From Neelides folsomi (taxonomy: Eukaryota; Arthropoda; Collembola; Neelipleona; Neelidae): a stretch of 28,833 bases of DNA. Below, piece after piece: positions 4,435 to 28,719 of the stretch; positions within the stretch are counted from its first letter, which is position 1; each line of letters begins with the position of its first letter. Location: contig JAQGBZ010000589.1 of the NCBI GenBank assembly GCA_034687125.1, positions 1 to 28,833 on the forward strand. Direction: 5' to 3'. The notes below the pieces were generated by a model. It had not been told where the DNA came from and did no database searches. It saw only the letters and a program-made list of their open reading frames with translations. Made by a program: the position numbers and the translations under genes.

Positions 4435-6049
4435 ATGAGTGAGTCTAAAGAAGCTGAAATGACTGAAACTGAAAAAACCGATAGTGCAATCAAAGTGGAA
4501 AAGAATGAAGAAGTTGACGAAGAAGCAAAAGTTGAAATTTCATTTTTTCCTCCAGTTTACGTCCAAAGATACAATCGTGTCTCGAGGACTTTAGAAAATC
4601 TTATTGCTTCCGAAAAGGAAAAATTCAATTCAGAAGAGACTTTTACAATCATGGAAGTTGGATGTGCAGAGATGAATTTGACAGTTCATTTGAAGACGAT
4701 TCCCGGACTGGAAAAGATTATATTTCTTGACATTGATGAAGATTTACTCAAATACGTAATTATTATTAAATAATAATTAAATTAACATATAAATTATGTT
4801 ATTGAAAAATATATTATTTTACATAATATAACTGTACAATGAAACAATAATCCTTTAATTAAAATATCCATTTTAATATTTAATAGCACAAAACGAATGC
4901 AGCTCCATTTCCCACCGAACGTTTACGACCTCGGAAAACTCCATTAAAAACGGAGATTTATGCTGGATGCATAACGAAATGCGATGAGGAAATTTTTAAT
5001 GTCATTCCCAAACTGAAGGGAGTGATTGGAATTGAAATCATTGAACATCTCCACTCGGATATTTTAACCGGATTTGTACGGACGATATTTGGACTTTTGT
5101 GTCCATCGATTGTCATTTTGACAACGCCAAATTCTGAATTTAATTGCGTTTTCAATCTTGCCCCTGGGAAATTTCGCCATTGGGATCACAAGTTTGAATG
5201 GACAAGAAAAGAATTTGAAGATTGGTGTTCGAGAATTTGTTCTGATTTTCCTCAATATCAATTTACCACTGAGGGGATTGGAGAAGGAAAACCAGAAACT
5301 AAAGTTTATGGTACTGTATCTCAAATGGTGATTTTTACTCATCGGGAAGGACTCATTGTTCCTGAAGAATCATCAAGAATTGAAAAATATTCTGGTAAAT
5401 TGAAATTGTGTTTTAACTATTTAAACACTGACGAGATTCTTTAATGGAATTATTATAGTGTATAATGGCCATTTGATTTAAGATTACATAATAATATTTT
5501 GATGTTTGATTTCTATTTTCAATAGATATTTTACAAAAAGACTGCTACAAATTAATTGACGAATACAACTATCCTTTTCACATTGACACTATGACAAGAG
5601 CTGAGAAGATTTTAAAAGAATTTACCTATTTCGCTAACAGCTACTTAATTACCAATCAAGAGTTGTACATTGTGTATGAGGAGTCGAATGGAGTGTTTTG
5701 TGATGTAATTGAGTTTGGTGTTGAAGAAGCTTGTAAGATTTACAAAATGCCCGAAGGAGTTACTCATAATGAACTCAGGTATATTTATCAATTATATTTA
5801 TTTATATATTTATTTAACTAAAATATTAAAATCGACACTTAAATGACATTTGACTTATTGACTTGCATATATTTAATTTTTAGAGAAGCGCTTGAAGCGA
5901 AATACACATTCAAAGAGAACCAATCAAATGAATCCGTTATTGTAATTCCAATACCATATTCGTCTGATGAAATTGAACCTGAAGATGACATGCCGAATAT
6001 AACCAAAACTAATTTAAATCAGGATATCATTGAAGAGTGCTGGGATTAA
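4435..6049 (+). CDS. HENMT1: HEN1 small-RNA 2'-O-methyltransferase, 4 exons
   Basis: Exons 4435-4755, 4887-5394, 5526-5778 and 5884-6049 join in frame to 415 residues, close to the roughly 390 of animal HENMT1. Animal HEN1 transfers methyl from S-adenosylmethionine to the 2'-OH of the 3' end of piRNAs, and in insects of Ago2-bound siRNAs, protecting them from tailing and decay. Residues 1-35 are acidic and Lys-rich. The family hallmark FFPPVYVQRY is at about 37-46, and SAM motif I reads MEVGCAEMN at 73-81. The Mg2+-binding EIIEH motif is intact (E157, E160, H161), followed by TTPNSEFN, then H208 in DHKFEWTR as the fourth metal ligand. All catalytic landmarks are present, so the enzyme should be active. 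A tail of about 140 residues after the catalytic core has a negatively charged end. The start chosen is the first ATG of the frame. Confidence 0.95.
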
Positions 6050-7524: not shown

Positions 7525-10500
7525 ATGGATTTGGTAAAGTTGGTTAAAGAATACGACGAATATCGAATCACAGCTCATTTTAGTCTTGGAAATCGGGACT
7601 ATTATGAGGATGAATACGTGATTCATCGAAATAAAAAGAATCTGACATTCTTCGGCATCTTCGATGGTCACGGTGGAAAAGAAGCAGCACAACACGCCAA
7701 AGACAATTTGTTTAAGAAAATTCTTTCCAATCTCCACATAGACATCCGGGATGACGTGTACGACGATGACGATTATTCCTTCATGGAAGCAATTAAAAAA
7801 GGATTCCAAGACACCCAAGAATCAATGTGGGATGTAATTCGTAAGTTAGCAATAATATGTTTTACAAACATATTTTATAGTTTTCACAAACTTAAATAAT
7901 TAACTATTAATTAATCGATCCTAAACTATTAATTAACTAATTGCATATCTACTAAATGTCAGAATGATTAACAATTTTTTAAAATATGACATTTACGTTT
8001 GCAGACAAGTGGGATAGAGGAAGCCGAGATTTGCCATCGACATCTGGAACCACCGCAAGTATTGCCATTCTCCGATGTGACAGAATAAATGGAAAGAATT
8101 TGTACAAGATTTATATTGGCCATGTCGGAGACACCAAAATCATTATGGTCAAGGAAGATCATGGAACACAATGTTGGACTGGACTTGAACTCACCACGGA
8201 CCACTCACCTAGAGATCCCACTGAAAGACAGAGGATTTTGGAAATGGGTGGAGATGTTCATCAAAACGGTCGGGTGATTTGGCGTAGACCTAAAATTAAT
8301 CACGGATCAACCAGAAAAAACTGCGAACTTCCTCTTGAAGCCACCGAACCCATTCCTTTCTTGAGTGTTTCTCGAGCTCTTGGTAAAATCATAATATATT
8401 ATAATACAAATGTAGATAAATATTATGATTAACTATTTTATACATAGTTCTTAATTTTAAATAGTTTAATTATGAAATCCTCGATTATCAAATATTTAAA
8501 TTTTATATTTTAAATAATTAAATTTAATAGAATAATTAATTGTTTTATTATAGGCGATTTATGGAGCTATTGCCCTAAGACCGATGATTATTTCGTTTCT
8601 CCAATTCCCGACGTCTCTGTAATGGAATTGGATTTTGCCGTACACAAGTGTCTCATTCTTGGAACGGACGGTCTTTGGAACGTTGTGAATGTTCAGGAAG
8701 CCACCGACACTTGCAAGATATCTTCCAATCTCAATTACCTTCGCAAGTTAAAACCTGAATTAAAAATGCGGGATGTAGAAATCGTCCCAGCATATCGCTT
8801 AGTTATTGAAGCATTGAAAAACATTAAATTAAAGAAGATCAGAGCTGACAACATCACAGCAGTGACGATCGAATTCAAATTTGCTGAAATGGAAGAAAAT
8901 CTGGCCAATTCTGACACTCAGTTGGTTCCTCAAGTTTCAACAGCACCACAGACAACATTTATTAAACCATACCCAAGACCATTAAAGAAACCCACAAGGA
9001 TTTCTCCAGGCCCAGAACCTTTGAAGACTGAAATTCTGGATGAAGATGAAATCAAAGAAGTCGAGACAAGGAGGAAATCTCCAAGTTTGCTTCGACCTGC
9101 GATTCTAATTCTGCCCAGTTCAATTGAAAGAACGAGACAAATGAACAACCAAGTGATGGTCAATGGGACAAGTGGAATGAATGAAAGTTTTGAAAGGAAA
9201 AGAGGTCGACCGCGTGGAATTAAAAAATTTCATGTGGGAAATGATGAAAGCCAGGTTGATCCGTTGAGAGAATCACCACCAAGAGGACGAGGCAGGCCCA
9301 AGAAAGCATTTAGTGTAATAATCTAAGCTATATAATATTAATGGAATTTTTCATATTAATTATTTTTCATATATTTATATCAAAATGGAGATTTTTATTA
9401 ATTTAATTCTCTTCATAGGAATCGGATGTTCACTCATTGTTAGAAAGTGACACGAGTGAACACGAATTGCAGATTGATGAATCTGCAAAAAATGCTGATG
9501 TCCCGAAGAAGAAGCGCGGAAGGCCATCCAAACACAATGTGACTATTAATGATGTACAACATGATTCTGAAACTGACACTTCTGAAGTTACCTTCCAAAT
9601 GGACAATCATTCAAAATTGAAGGTAAAAAAACGTGGGCGACCGCCAAAATCCATTGAGATCGCAAATGACTCGGACTCAAATCAATCGGACTCTCTTTTA
9701 AAGAAAAAGCGTGGTCGACCTTCCAAATCTAAAGAGCCAGATTCTGAATTTTCTCATGACCCGGTGAACATAAAGAAAAAACGCGGACGTCCTTCAAAAA
9801 GCAAGGAATTTTCGGGTGAGACAACTGACTTTGAGACAAGCATTTTGGAATCAGAAGGAGAAACTTCAATGAAGAAACGCGGAAGACCCAAGAAGAATAA
9901 AGAAATTAATGAAAGAGAAGTTAAAAATGAGAATTCTGAAGATTCTGAAAAGTTTTCTTCTGAAGATGAATACGGAGTTCCTACAAAGAAACGCGGGCGT
10001 CCGAAGAAAGACAAAACCAATAATTCTGCTAATAATGATGTTTCTGAAAGTGAATCTAACATAAGTTTGACTAAGAAGAAAAGAGGACGACCTTCAAACA
10101 AAAGTATTTTGGCTGCTGGTGGTTCAATTCGAACTTCAGAAGGGAAAAAGAAACGTGGTCGACCTTCAAAGGCCAATTTGGAAAGTGAAGGAATAGATGT
10201 TTATGCATTTTCTGAAGAAGAAATTGAAATCCCGAAGAAAAAACGTGGTCGACCATCTAATAAGATCAAAAGGGGGCCGGGCAGACCTCCGAAATGTAAG
10301 GATCAAAATGAAATTGGAACTGAAGAGAAATATAATGAAAATTTCGGAACTCAATCACATGAAGTTAACCATAAATACTCCGTTGAACCAATTTATAAAA
10401 TTTCTTTGAATATAATTCCTAAGAAAAGAGGACGACCAATGAAAATGAAAGATAATGGGAAGGAGAAGGAAAATGAAGAGCAGGAAGAAGAAACCGAAAC

Positions 10501-11092
10501 TGAGGAAATCAATCCACTCGATATTTCCATCAGTGGGAAAAGACAAAGAAAGCCACCATTGAAGTTTAAAGAATTTTCTGATTGGGGAATCAGCTCAGAC
10601 AATGACTCACCTCTTCATAAAGATCAAGAGAATGGATTGAAAAAGAAACGCGGACGACCGGCTAAGACAAAATCCACTGAAGTCACTGAAAATGAAGAAC
10701 CTTCTGCTTCAACTTCCACTTGTGTAAATCTTGATGAAACTTTAGAAATTGTGAAGAAGAAAAGAGGAAGACCTTCAAAAGTAGCTGTAAGTTTAAAAAT
10801 GTTAATTAATTAATTATTCTCATTATGATCGATTATTTTATTGAGTGAATTTATTGAATCTAAATATCCATGTTCTTAAATATATTATTTTATTTGAATT
10901 ATTAATTAAATTGAATTTATAATTTATCTTTTTTAGAAAATGAATGATAGTATGGCCGACGAACCATTGGACGAAGACACAAACGAGATCGAGAACAACG
11001 TTGAAATTATTTCTGTCCCTGAAGAATTTCCAATTCCTTTGGAAACTCCCGAACCAAAAGAGAAATGGACAGGGGCGGAGATCCAGATTTAA
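7525..11092 (+). CDS. PPM1D/WIP1-like Ser/Thr phosphatase with 15 AT-hooks, 5 exons
   Basis: Exons 7525-7840, 8005-8382, 8554-9314, 9419-10786 and 10937-11092 join in frame at every junction to 992 residues. Residues 1 to about 340 are a PP2C/PPM domain most like PPM1D (WIP1), the metal-dependent phosphatase that switches off DNA-damage kinase signalling: YED 27-29, DGHGG 47-51, LPSTSGTTAS 115-124, HVGD with D148, VIWRRPK, SRALGDLW, DGLWN with D270, and RADN with D330. All metal-binding aspartates are present. The Pro-rich loop of human WIP1 between YMED and the DGHGG-type motif is missing. From about residue 447 to 940 the protein carries 15 AT-hooks with a GRP core, mostly KKKRGRPSK, separated by acidic Ser/Thr-rich linkers that look like CK2 targets. 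It ends in an acidic Pro/Glu tail. It is probably nuclear and bound to AT-rich DNA (inference). ATG 7525 is the first in-frame start after the acceptor. Confidence 0.92.
9180..10780 (+). repeat. AT-hook array inside the phosphatase gene
   Basis: Fifteen copies of an 8-10 residue basic motif with core RGRP or GPGRP. Two are in the third exon (near 9195 and 9282) and thirteen in the fourth (near 9508, 9627, 9702, 9775, 9871, 9987, 10075, 10147, 10232, 10270, 10423, 10640 and 10755). A degenerate basic motif (GKRQRKPPLK, near 10538) may be an eroded sixteenth. The Arg and Gly codons of the core differ between copies (CGC GGA AGG, CGT GGG CGA, AGA GGA CGA, CGC GGG CGT), while the peptide stays nearly constant. 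This suggests old copies kept by selection on the protein, not a recent DNA duplication. Confidence 0.9.
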
Positions 11093-18150: not shown

Positions 18151-19327
18151 TCAACGGATAAATAATTCATATTTTAATTTATAATCAGATTCAAAGAAAT
18201 GTTGATAAGCTAACTGTTTGCTCCATACAAAAAACATAATGTCTTCGAACGTTGAATTTCCATCCAGATATTCGTTAACGAGAAGAAGAAAAATGAATGG
18301 AAGTTTTACTTTGAAATCTCTCCCTTTGTACCACTCAATTATTTTTGAATTATTTACAGGAGGTAAATTATAAAATGTATTAAATTCTCCAATTGAAACT
18401 GATGAATTTTCTCTCATGATTCCAGTGACAAAAACATCATCAATATAAAGAAACTTCACTTTTTGTTCAAATTCCAAAATTTCTTCAAGAGCCTCTCTCG
18501 TAATTACATAAGCCATGCCGCTGCAATAAGTAGGATAAACATCCAATGGATATTCTTTGTAATTCACATTTGTTTTTGTCCTTTTCCTCATTGGAGGATA
18601 ATTTTCCATTTTATTACAAATTATCCTTTCGTTCCGTTCTATAAATTGCGATGAGTTGGTTTGGAGGAAATTCAGAAGTCTGAAAATGTCCACAGAAACG
18701 TCGTCGTCTGTTTTTAAAATGAAGTCTGCATTTGGACAAAATTCGGAAACCCAACGATAACCCATGACATGTTTATAAGATAAATTTCTGTAATTGTCGA
18801 TGAAATTTCCAATAAGGAGATCTTGAGAATCTTCAATTTCGTTTTTAATTGGAATCGAATTTGAATTTTTAGGTTGACCAAGAAGAAAAATAAGCCGAAT
18901 ATTCCAATTTTTGAATGTTTTTAAAGAACCCCAAGTTCTCCGAATGGCATTTCTCCGCTTTGAATGACTTCTTGCAGAATTTATGAAAATGAGAAGAAAC
19001 TTTTCATTTTCTGACTTTTCGAAATCACACGACTTTTGGTTATTTTTTAAATATTTAAAATTTTGAAGATTTAACAATTTAGAACTTTTAGATTGATCAT
19101 TTTGGCTATAGTAAAAATTAAACTTTGGTTGTGTCTTAGCATTCTTCCATATATTATAAACGAAGATCAGCGTTAGAATGCCACAGAAGAAACTCAACTA
19201 AAATAAATTTTCTAGATGAGAAAGATTATTATAATTCTGTTAATTAAAAATTTTAGTAAAGTATGATTAAATAACTTACGCAGTTTTTTAAGTTGTGCTT
19301 TTTACGAAAAGGATAAACTTCCACCAT
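18151..19327 (-). CDS. GT31 beta-1,3-glycosyltransferase, 2 exons
   Basis: A short first exon 19327-19280 (MVEVYPFRKKHNLKNC) joins at GTAAGT to the long exon 19197-18151, giving 364 residues. The layout is that of a Golgi type II membrane enzyme: a short basic cytosolic end, one membrane segment (about 17-31, LSFFCGILTLIFVYN), a polar stem, then the GT31 catalytic domain. Motifs seen are RRNAIRRTWG, RLIFLLGQP, NLSYKHVMGYRWV, the DDD metal/UDP-sugar motif in LKTDDDVSVD, YPTYCSGMAYVI, and LYIDDVFVTGI. The family transfers galactose or N-acetylglucosamine in beta-1,3 linkage to glycans of proteins or lipids. The exact donor and acceptor cannot be told from sequence. All key motifs are intact. 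The upstream mini-exon supplies the initiator Met; the downstream in-frame Met is only the second residue of exon 2 and would lose the cytosolic tail. Confidence 0.94.
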
Positions 19328-25200: not shown

Positions 25201-26232
25201 ATGTTCAGATGACACTTTTGCCATTGCTAAATATCTCATGGTCCTTACTACTTTGTATCTCACATTGAGCAATTTGTTCTTCATTCCTGCAATCGTTCTT
25301 TCAATTCGTCGTCGACTTTATACCCATTTTCTCGTTTATTTTGCAACGATGGTTTCTTCTGGCCTTTACCATGCGTGTGATCAGGAGCTTTATGGATATT
25401 GTATTGCTCGTTATAATGTAAGTTTCAATGAACACAAATAATTATATTTTTAATTCATTACTACAATATTTAATTTTCAAATTCAAGTAAATTTTGTGTT
25501 TAACATTTAATAGCCATTGATGTATTTTTTAATTTTCCAGGTCCTTCAATTTTGTGATTTCTTTTGTTCCATTTTATCATTTTGGGTGACGCTGATTTCT
25601 TTGGGGAATACTCCAACTAAATATGATTCATTCCTCTATATGCTCGGAGCCGTCCTCATTGCAATCGGCGTCGAGAATAATCGAACCGGGTTGATGGTTT
25701 TGCTCATCCCTTTCATATTCGGCCTTGGAATTCCCCTTGGAGTTTGGGCAAACCGAAGTTGCCGAGCGGGGAATGTTTTAGTTCCAAATCTCAATTCTAT
25801 TCTTTTATTCCTTCCGGGTATTTTTCTTGGAGGTGCTGGAATCATCCTTTTTGCATTTATTGAAACTGAAGAAAATTACCAAGTAATTAATATTTGATAC
25901 TTGTAACATAATTAATATACATACATTCTAATTGGTCAAAACAAAAAACATTGAAAACATTTTGACTAAATTAACAATGAAATTATGATTTGTTTTTTAC
26001 ATAGTATACACACAGTGCTTGGCATATTATCATTGCCTTGTCCCTTGTGTACATCATGCCAAAAAAGAGAAGTGAAACGGAATTTGAAATTAGCGAAGGA
26101 AACTTAGGAACGAATGGATTGGCGGAGTTCACTTCTGTTAACAACTACCAAAGCGTTGAAACTCCCGGGAGTGGCCCAGTTTTTGTCATTACTTCCGAAT
26201 TGGATCAATTAGTCGATCAAGAAACCAGATGA
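22299..26232 (+). CDS. TMEM8: PGAP6/TMEM8-type GPI-processing membrane protein, 12 exons
   Basis: Exons 22299-22329, 22452-22644, 22784-23003, 23165-23292, 23428-23768, 23888-24108, 24198-24329, 24502-24725, 24910-25088, 25185-25417, 25541-25882 and 26005-26232 all keep frame and give 823 residues (human TMEM8A is about 770). Order: signal peptide (MKFFILFSIYVFTTFISG); a large outer domain opening with ADITLFHYYLPKEVAKATFEF and YLQHGSYPV; a Ser/Asn-rich glycosylation-prone patch (SSFNSSSNSTSS); a Cys-rich EGF-like module (CGEFGYCQEV then CRCLGG); GYRGWGC; and a seven-helix CREST-type membrane domain. The CREST motifs are visible: TLSNLFF, YHACDQ, and YTHSAWH in the last helix. PGAP6 is a phospholipase A2 that trims the lipid of GPI-anchored proteins at the cell surface and releases them. 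The C-terminal tail is cytosolic (MPKKRSETEF...). AATAAA at 26243 follows the stop by about 10 bases. Confidence 0.95.
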
Positions 26233-27635: not shown

Positions 27636-27891
27636 TGATAAAAATGTTAACACTTAAATCGCAAGGCCAACAGGGTTTAATTTAGATAAGATGATAAATA
27701 AGTTTCTAGAGTTGGACGAATCCGAAGTAATCTTCATTATAGTCACATGTTACGCACTTGAATTTAAAACGGTCATTTTCATCTCGTGGTCGGAATTCCA
27801 TATATTATTTACCTAAATTCTTTCCTTTCATTTATTTGACTCTTGAAATTGTCTGAAATTGTTCATTTATTTTAGTCCAGGGGAATCAAAA

Positions 27892-28719
27892 ATGTCTGAG
27901 AAGAAGGAAGTAAGCGGATATAAAGTTGGAGGAGTTGAGGAAGCAAAGAAAGCAAAGATTTGTGTGGATTTGCGGAGTGACACGGTCACGAAACCAAGTC
28001 AGGAGATGAGAACTGCCATGGCCACAGCCCAAGTGGGAGATGATGTACTCAGGGAGGATCCAACAACTATTTGTAATATTATAAATGAATAATAAAACGA
28101 TTGTTTATAACAATTTTGTATTGTAATTTATTTTAAATAAAATAGGAAATTGAACTAATCCATAATTAATTTATTTTTACATTAGACATTGAAGAGTTGA
28201 TGGCTAAGAATCTTGGTAAAGAAGAAGGGCTTTTTGTAAGTTCAGGAACAATGGGGAATTTACTCGCTAGTAAGAACCAAATTTAATAAATTAAATTAAC
28301 TAACTGTACATTATCTGTAACATAATAATTTGCGTATCGTTTGATTGAGAAAATTGTTTTTTTCCACAGCACTGGTGCATTGCAACAATCGAGGGTCGGA
28401 AGCAATTGTTGGAAGCATGAGCCATCAATTCATGTATGAACAGGGAGGAATGGCACAAGTAAATCGATTTATCATATACCCAACAAAAATAGGTTATATT
28501 AATAATTAAACCATTTAAAGGACATTTTGATTTGCTTAGTTCGGAGGCGTTCAAGCAAATCCTCTCAGAAACAATCCAGATGGAACTTTTGACATTAATG
28601 AAATTTTGCGGAATATTCGAGCCGATGATGTCCATTTTCCCAAGACTTCTTTGATCGGAATTGAAAATACACACAACATGACTGGTGGTCGAGTTGTTCC
28701 TCTTGATTGGATTGACAAA
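27892..28719 (+). CDS. Low-specificity threonine aldolase, partial (3' exons off the edge)
   Basis: Exons 27892-28072, 28186-28269, 28370-28458 and 28540-28719 keep frame and give the first 178 residues. After a Lys-rich start ([11 protein letters not shown]) the aldolase core begins with [15 protein letters not shown] and [12 protein letters not shown], followed by [23 protein letters not shown], the PLP-phosphate loop, then [40 protein letters not shown], and [21 protein letters not shown]. This PLP enzyme splits L-threonine or L-allo-threonine into glycine and acetaldehyde. The HLDGAR segment and the PLP-binding lysine, which lie further on, are not in the window. At 28719 the exon probably ends at AAA|GTGAAA; reading through would stop at TAA within 10 bases, so a donor is assumed. 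The gene is incomplete because of the window edge, with no sign of damage. Confidence 0.92.

Follow-up and report, generated by a model that had tools for sequence, protein, structure and literature searches.

The question raised by this springtail locus is whether a phosphatase of the WIP1 (PPM1D) type carries, within one and the same gene, a long array of DNA-binding AT-hooks, and what such a tail could do for the enzyme. We analyzed a window of 28,833 bases, i.e., the whole of contig C589 in an assembly of 75.1 Mb and 840 contigs. By its COX1 on contig C742, the assembly looks collembolan: Named springtails match at 78 to 82%, one further source at 93%, and the insects among the matches listed mostly at 75 to 78%; C589 is attributed to this animal as a member of the assembly. 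A preliminary description of this DNA had proposed five exons that join in frame, and our analysis bears this out: The borders of the five exons between positions 7525 and 11092 follow the GT-AG rule, and the joined sequence of 2979 nt, which encodes 992 residues, has a single stop codon, at its end. The parts of the gene are as follows.

7525 to 7840, + strand: exon 1, with the start codon and the PP2C domain's N-terminal portion, including the DGHGG motif (GT-AG model; alignment to PPM1D 8t2j)
8005 to 8382, + strand: exon 2, central portion of the catalytic domain with STSGTTAS, GHVGDT, and the flap/B-loop region (GT-AG model; alignment to PPM1D 8t2j)
8554 to 9314, + strand: exon 3, last part of the catalytic domain (GTDGLWN, ADN), followed by a linker and AT-hooks 1 and 2 (unspliced frame, GT-AG model, and hook listing)
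9315 to 9418, + strand: intron 3, 104 nt, 15% GC, with a stop at 9326 if retained
9419 to 10786, + strand: exon 4, AT-hooks 3 to 15 and acidic spacers, a phase 0-0 cassette of 1368 nt
10937 to 11092, + strand: exon 5, the last 51 residues, acidic with a net charge of −12, followed by the stop codon

The GC content amounts to 38 to 44% in the exons, 12 to 21% in the introns, and 17 to 20% in the 500-base flanks. With codon usage trained on exons 1 to 3, exons 4 and 5 each reached 0.217 bits per codon in the predicted frame, the highest score of the six frames, and all four introns scored below zero in all six frames. The donor at 9315 and the acceptor at 9419 yield a stop-free, in-frame join between exons 3 and 4. 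As there are 124 stop-free GT/AG joins between these exons in the ranges that we tried, 25 of them with a GT[A/G]A donor, the frame alone is no proof of this particular splice, which stands as a prediction. The fusion of phosphatase and hooks is independent of it, however, because the first two hooks lie, as the preliminary description had stated, in the exon that encodes the end of the catalytic domain, within an uninterrupted frame from 8514 to 9326. The hooks on either side of the junction are located as follows.

9192 to 9218, + strand: AT-hook 1, ERKRGRPRG, in the exon holding the catalytic end
9279 to 9305, + strand: AT-hook 2, PRGRGRPKK, in the exon holding the catalytic end
9506 to 9532: AT-hook 3, in exon 4

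Retention of intron 3 would stop translation at 9326 and leave a phosphatase with two hooks. This clean stop, along with an exon 4 frame that is closed just upstream of 9419 and an exon 3/4 join that is predicted only, speaks for two separate products, namely a short two-hook WIP1 that ends in the retained intron and a distinct AT-hook protein made from exon 4. We regard such a split as unlikely. Exon 4 has its first in-frame ATG at 9599, past hook 3, which would accordingly remain untranslated even though its core is intact; the GC content of intron 3 is far below that of the exons; and exon 3 already has two hooks of the same kind. A shorter variant of the joined protein is possible: Since exon 4 is in phase 0-0, skipping it keeps the frame, and the gene model would then predict a 536-residue, two-hook form that retains the acidic end.

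The catalytic part can be assigned with more detail. Pfam recognized PP2C in the joined protein (E 3.6e-37), and in a search of solved structures, in which 47 distinct sequences matched, PPM1D (8t2j_A) came out best with an E of 3.9e-50, as compared to 4.1e-14 for the next structure, another PP2C. The claim of a PPM1D-like catalytic domain is supported. Among the best 120 of 657 homologs, the leading ones are crustacean, springtail, insect, and spider proteins with 37 to 44% identity, several of which carry the names PPM1D or Pp2C1. We aligned the query with these best 120 homologs over their first 420 residues and found that it matches 79 of the 99 columns that are common to at least 114 of the 120. 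The other 20 columns are changed; among them are two with gaps and the substitutions M27Y, W79Y, G114D, K173S, and K193N. Single flanking changes aside, the protein retains the DGHGG, GHVGD, DGLWN, and ADN motifs, and D47, G48, D270, and D330, which we take to be Asp and Gly residues at the metal and active sites of the PP2C fold, are the same as in at least 114 of the best 120 homologs. From its sequence, the active site is intact-looking. The flap/B-loop region is present with R/K residues, with alterations in several conserved columns (K193N, two gaps, V197I, P207S, and T212C). In a tree of 49 rows (the query and 48 of 124 homologs), the query fell into no supported group and had an end branch of 6.28, as opposed to a median of 0.16. 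Judged by sequence, the protein is a clear PPM1D relative that has strongly diverged; a divergence of this size across the catalytic region (7525 to 8900) is very high for a PPM1D. Upon searching the assembly with the Orchesella PPM1D at E up to 1e-5, we recovered three exons of this same gene and a weakly matching stretch on C27 (34% identity, E 5e-10), and found no second PPM1D-like gene.

Behind the catalytic domain, the tail contains 15 G-R-P cores, 14 of them RGRP and one PGRP, between residues 449 and 937. Eleven of the 14 spacings measure 24 to 41 residues, and the other three 11, 50, and 74. Pfam AT_hook detected the array in the joined protein with an E of 1.5e-16 and 58.5 bits against a cut-off of 17.4, while single hooks each fell below the cut-off. 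At the level of the gene model, the catalytic domain is accordingly joined to fifteen hooks in one open frame, in agreement with the count given earlier. With nine residues counted per hook, the fifteen hooks add up to a net charge of +81, as against +13 for the tail, which makes the spacers acidic overall.

Could such an array be noise? A chance or low-complexity origin was rejected: In 2000 shuffles of the tail residues, RGRP occurred 0.016 times on average and at most once, versus 14 times in the protein, and a K-R-G-R-P codon pattern matched 13 times in the window, as opposed to 0.02 matches expected, all 13 within 9198 to 10773. Across the four core codons, pairwise comparison of the hooks gave a pS of 0.78 per synonymous site and a pN of 0.07 per non-synonymous site, the latter being depressed in itself by the picking of hooks by G-R-P. 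The spread of synonymous codons shows that the hooks are copies that either are old or arose independently and in which the encoded residues have been kept. That chance, low-complexity noise, or a faulty assembly join produced this gene is, in our estimate, scarcely credible. The contig is short, at 28,833 bases, and the gene is a model predicted from DNA, which leaves some room for such an explanation, but the shuffles and pattern counts, the synonymous divergence among the hooks, and the single open frame that holds hooks 1 and 2 together with the catalytic end all argue against it.

Two further origins of the array were rejected. A recent tandem expansion at the DNA level would leave hook-sized repeats; Tandem Repeats Finder reported five short rows, none of them hook-sized, and in the largest hook family the other nine members are 67 to 79% identical to the reference over 33 nt. 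Copying from another gene here found no source either, as the exon 4 protein matched itself only (7 candidates scored). A Pfam AT_hook search of the assembly gave zero matches, even at the gene that carries the 15 hooks, and hence bears no weight as to other arrays. The KRGRP codon pattern is not enriched over the whole assembly, with 170 matches versus 193 for the reversed control. Among the matches listed of these 170 (contigs C1 to C151), the most closely packed group outside this gene is a trio of KRGRP-type patterns, all on the same strand of a 615-base stretch (G000:C62:48980-49594), possibly a second AT-hook gene. Lastly, S/TxxD/E kinase sites in the tail were not enriched (20 versus 18.6 by chance).

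A combination of PP2C with multiple AT-hooks in related genomes, which the preliminary description had proposed to look for, did not appear in the relatives searched. RGRP occurs in none of the best 120 of 657 homologs, and Pfam AT_hook at E up to 1 in none of the 60 of these that were scanned. Shorter hook-like words are sparse in the same 120 proteins: GRP occurs once in 33 of them, [KR]GRP once in 3, and RGR in 33, with at most three per protein. A full-length search, whose words covered the hooks too, returned no protein with both parts among 7987 candidates scored; the four proteins that passed it are all filarial PP2C sequences, which we set aside as they lack GRP and RGR. The relatives among the best 120 have a long tail, which varies in sequence and on average is basic; in two Orchesella proteins, the tail has a basic end and no RGRP. 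The springtail protein shares with PPM1D/WIP1 (PP2C delta; Pp2C1 in some arthropod records) the catalytic domain and the long tail behind it, and differs by the 15 hook cores in that tail. No published fusion of PP2C/WIP1 with AT-hooks is described in the titles or abstract openings of the largely non-subscription literature searched.

What could the hooks do for the enzyme? AT-hooks are established as motifs that bind AT-rich DNA. We consider it probable, judging from the sequence, that the gene encodes a WIP1 that has diverged strongly and that its variable tail serves as a D1/HMGA-style multi-AT-hook anchor and would tether the phosphatase to AT-rich chromatin. This anchor reading draws on the in-frame gene model, the fusion within one exon, PPM1D as best match, the 79 of 99 conserved columns, the pS and pN values, the frame scores of exons 4 and 5, and the single PPM1D-like gene found. 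It further builds on two likenesses to known proteins, i.e., the layout of D1 (in passages of PMC5957525) and the precedent of sponge Orc1 (in passages of PMC11077064). Against it stand the 124 possible exon 3/4 joins, the 20 changed columns, the end branch of 6.28, and the lack of an SQ-tailed H2A among the histone loci found (see below), as well as the weak binding of sponge Orc1, with its seven hooks, to a probe of 50% AT, as passages of PMC11077064 relate.

The layout of Drosophila D1 and of mammalian HMGA1 offers a likeness. According to passages of PMC5957525, D1 has 10 AT-hooks and HMGA1 three, both have an acidic C-terminal domain, and both bundle satellite DNA. The springtail protein likewise combines multiple hooks (15) with an acidic end (−12); D1 and HMGA1 are, however, DNA-bundling proteins as described in that source, whereas here the hooks are more numerous (15 against 10 and three) and sit on an enzyme; the likeness drawn is one of layout. 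The layout could also be read the other way around, as a structural chromatin protein of the D1 kind whose phosphatase domain, in front, is in decay. We find this hardly likely: Fifteen hooks and an acidic end, as reported in part of PMC5957525 for D1/HMGA1, and a diverged catalytic domain on a long branch would fit it, but the catalytic motifs are kept, which would be unexpected in a vestige.

AT-hooks in the variable regions of conserved chromatin enzymes have a precedent in sponge Orc1, which, in the sections of PMC11077064 concerned, carries seven of them in a region without alignable similarity among animals and forms puncta on fly chromosomes that the authors speculate to be D1-type sites. 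In the same sections, sponge Orc1 and fission yeast Orc4 are conserved chromatin enzymes with AT-hooks that serve tethering and are embedded in a disordered region, which is variable or N-terminal. Both are replication-origin proteins and not phosphatases, and sponge Orc1 has seven hooks as compared to 15 here (PMC11077064, in part).

For human WIP1, passages of PMC5442293 give a catalytic domain of residues 1 to 375 and a tail that is presumably unstructured and contains a nuclear localization signal. The springtail hooks might be mainly regulatory or serve import, the basic array acting as a nuclear localization signal or an autoregulatory element and not chiefly as an anchor. Such a role, which we hold to be improbable though deserving some weight, is favored by this human signal, by the resemblance of the K/R-rich cores to nuclear localization signals, and by the AT-hooks of SWI/SNF, which the abstract of PMC10403523 describes as auto-regulatory. 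Fifteen maintained G-R-P cores, on the other hand, exceed the needs of import. The core G and P are not known to play a part in an ordinary basic import signal, which likewise counts against this role. For the anchor reading, the location as such would be nothing new: In 2010, Macurek reportedly found human WIP1 associated with chromatin. As human WIP1 has already been reported there, the novelty would lie in the means of tethering. By analogy with the proteins above, an AT-selective route is the most likely way for this WIP1 tail to hold its enzyme.

We infer the location, activity, and substrates of the springtail enzyme from its sequence. Through multivalent contacts with the minor groove of AT-rich DNA, the hooks would concentrate the phosphatase on AT-rich chromatin. 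The enzyme would then be biased toward substrates bound there, presumably damage-response proteins of the pSQ/pTQ type, and damage signals might thereby be ended locally. In excerpts from PMC5442293, pSQ/pTQ is one of two substrate motifs of human WIP1. A search of the assembly for histones yielded six matches to the core family and two to the H2A C-terminus, and none of the eight histone loci scanned (L015, L016, and L019 to L024), which are few and partly incomplete, showed an SQ[DE]-type C-terminus on either strand. Gamma-H2AX as a substrate is thus not supported, which is no proof of its absence. The H2A.Z-like and partial H2A C-termini at L015 and L016 (G000, C19 and C309) end without an SQ motif. 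A p53-family match that passes the cut-off is present in the assembly (E 1.1e-5).

A bolder version of the tethering idea, which we put forward tentatively and think rather less than probable, is that of a phosphatase-D1 chimera. As a chromocenter-type multivalent binder of AT-DNA, it would reside permanently on AT-rich heterochromatin and keep damage or cell-cycle phosphorylation low there, i.e., act as a spatially fixed checkpoint silencer. No silencer of this type is described for other animals in the titles and abstract openings searched. WIP1 ends DNA-damage signaling, and a natural form of it with a DNA-binding tail would make the tethering idea directly testable by removal or transfer of the tail. 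The springtail protein would also add an enzyme to cases such as Orc1, in which a conserved enzyme is kept on chromatin by its variable region, through differing sequence means.

The remainder of the window contains other genes or pieces of them. Near the phosphatase gene, at 4435 to 5821 on the + strand, open reading frames in three pieces gave no Pfam match at E 0.01; to us, they look like a HEN1-type small-RNA methyltransferase. Gene pieces on the + strand match a PHR domain (1554 to 1814, E 3.6e-5), DUF3522 (25514 to 25897, E 4.4e-19), and a beta-eliminating lyase (27847 to 28092, E 4.8e-10), and an open reading frame of the galactosyltransferase family (PF01762, E 8.8e-46) occupies 18151 to 19197 on the − strand.
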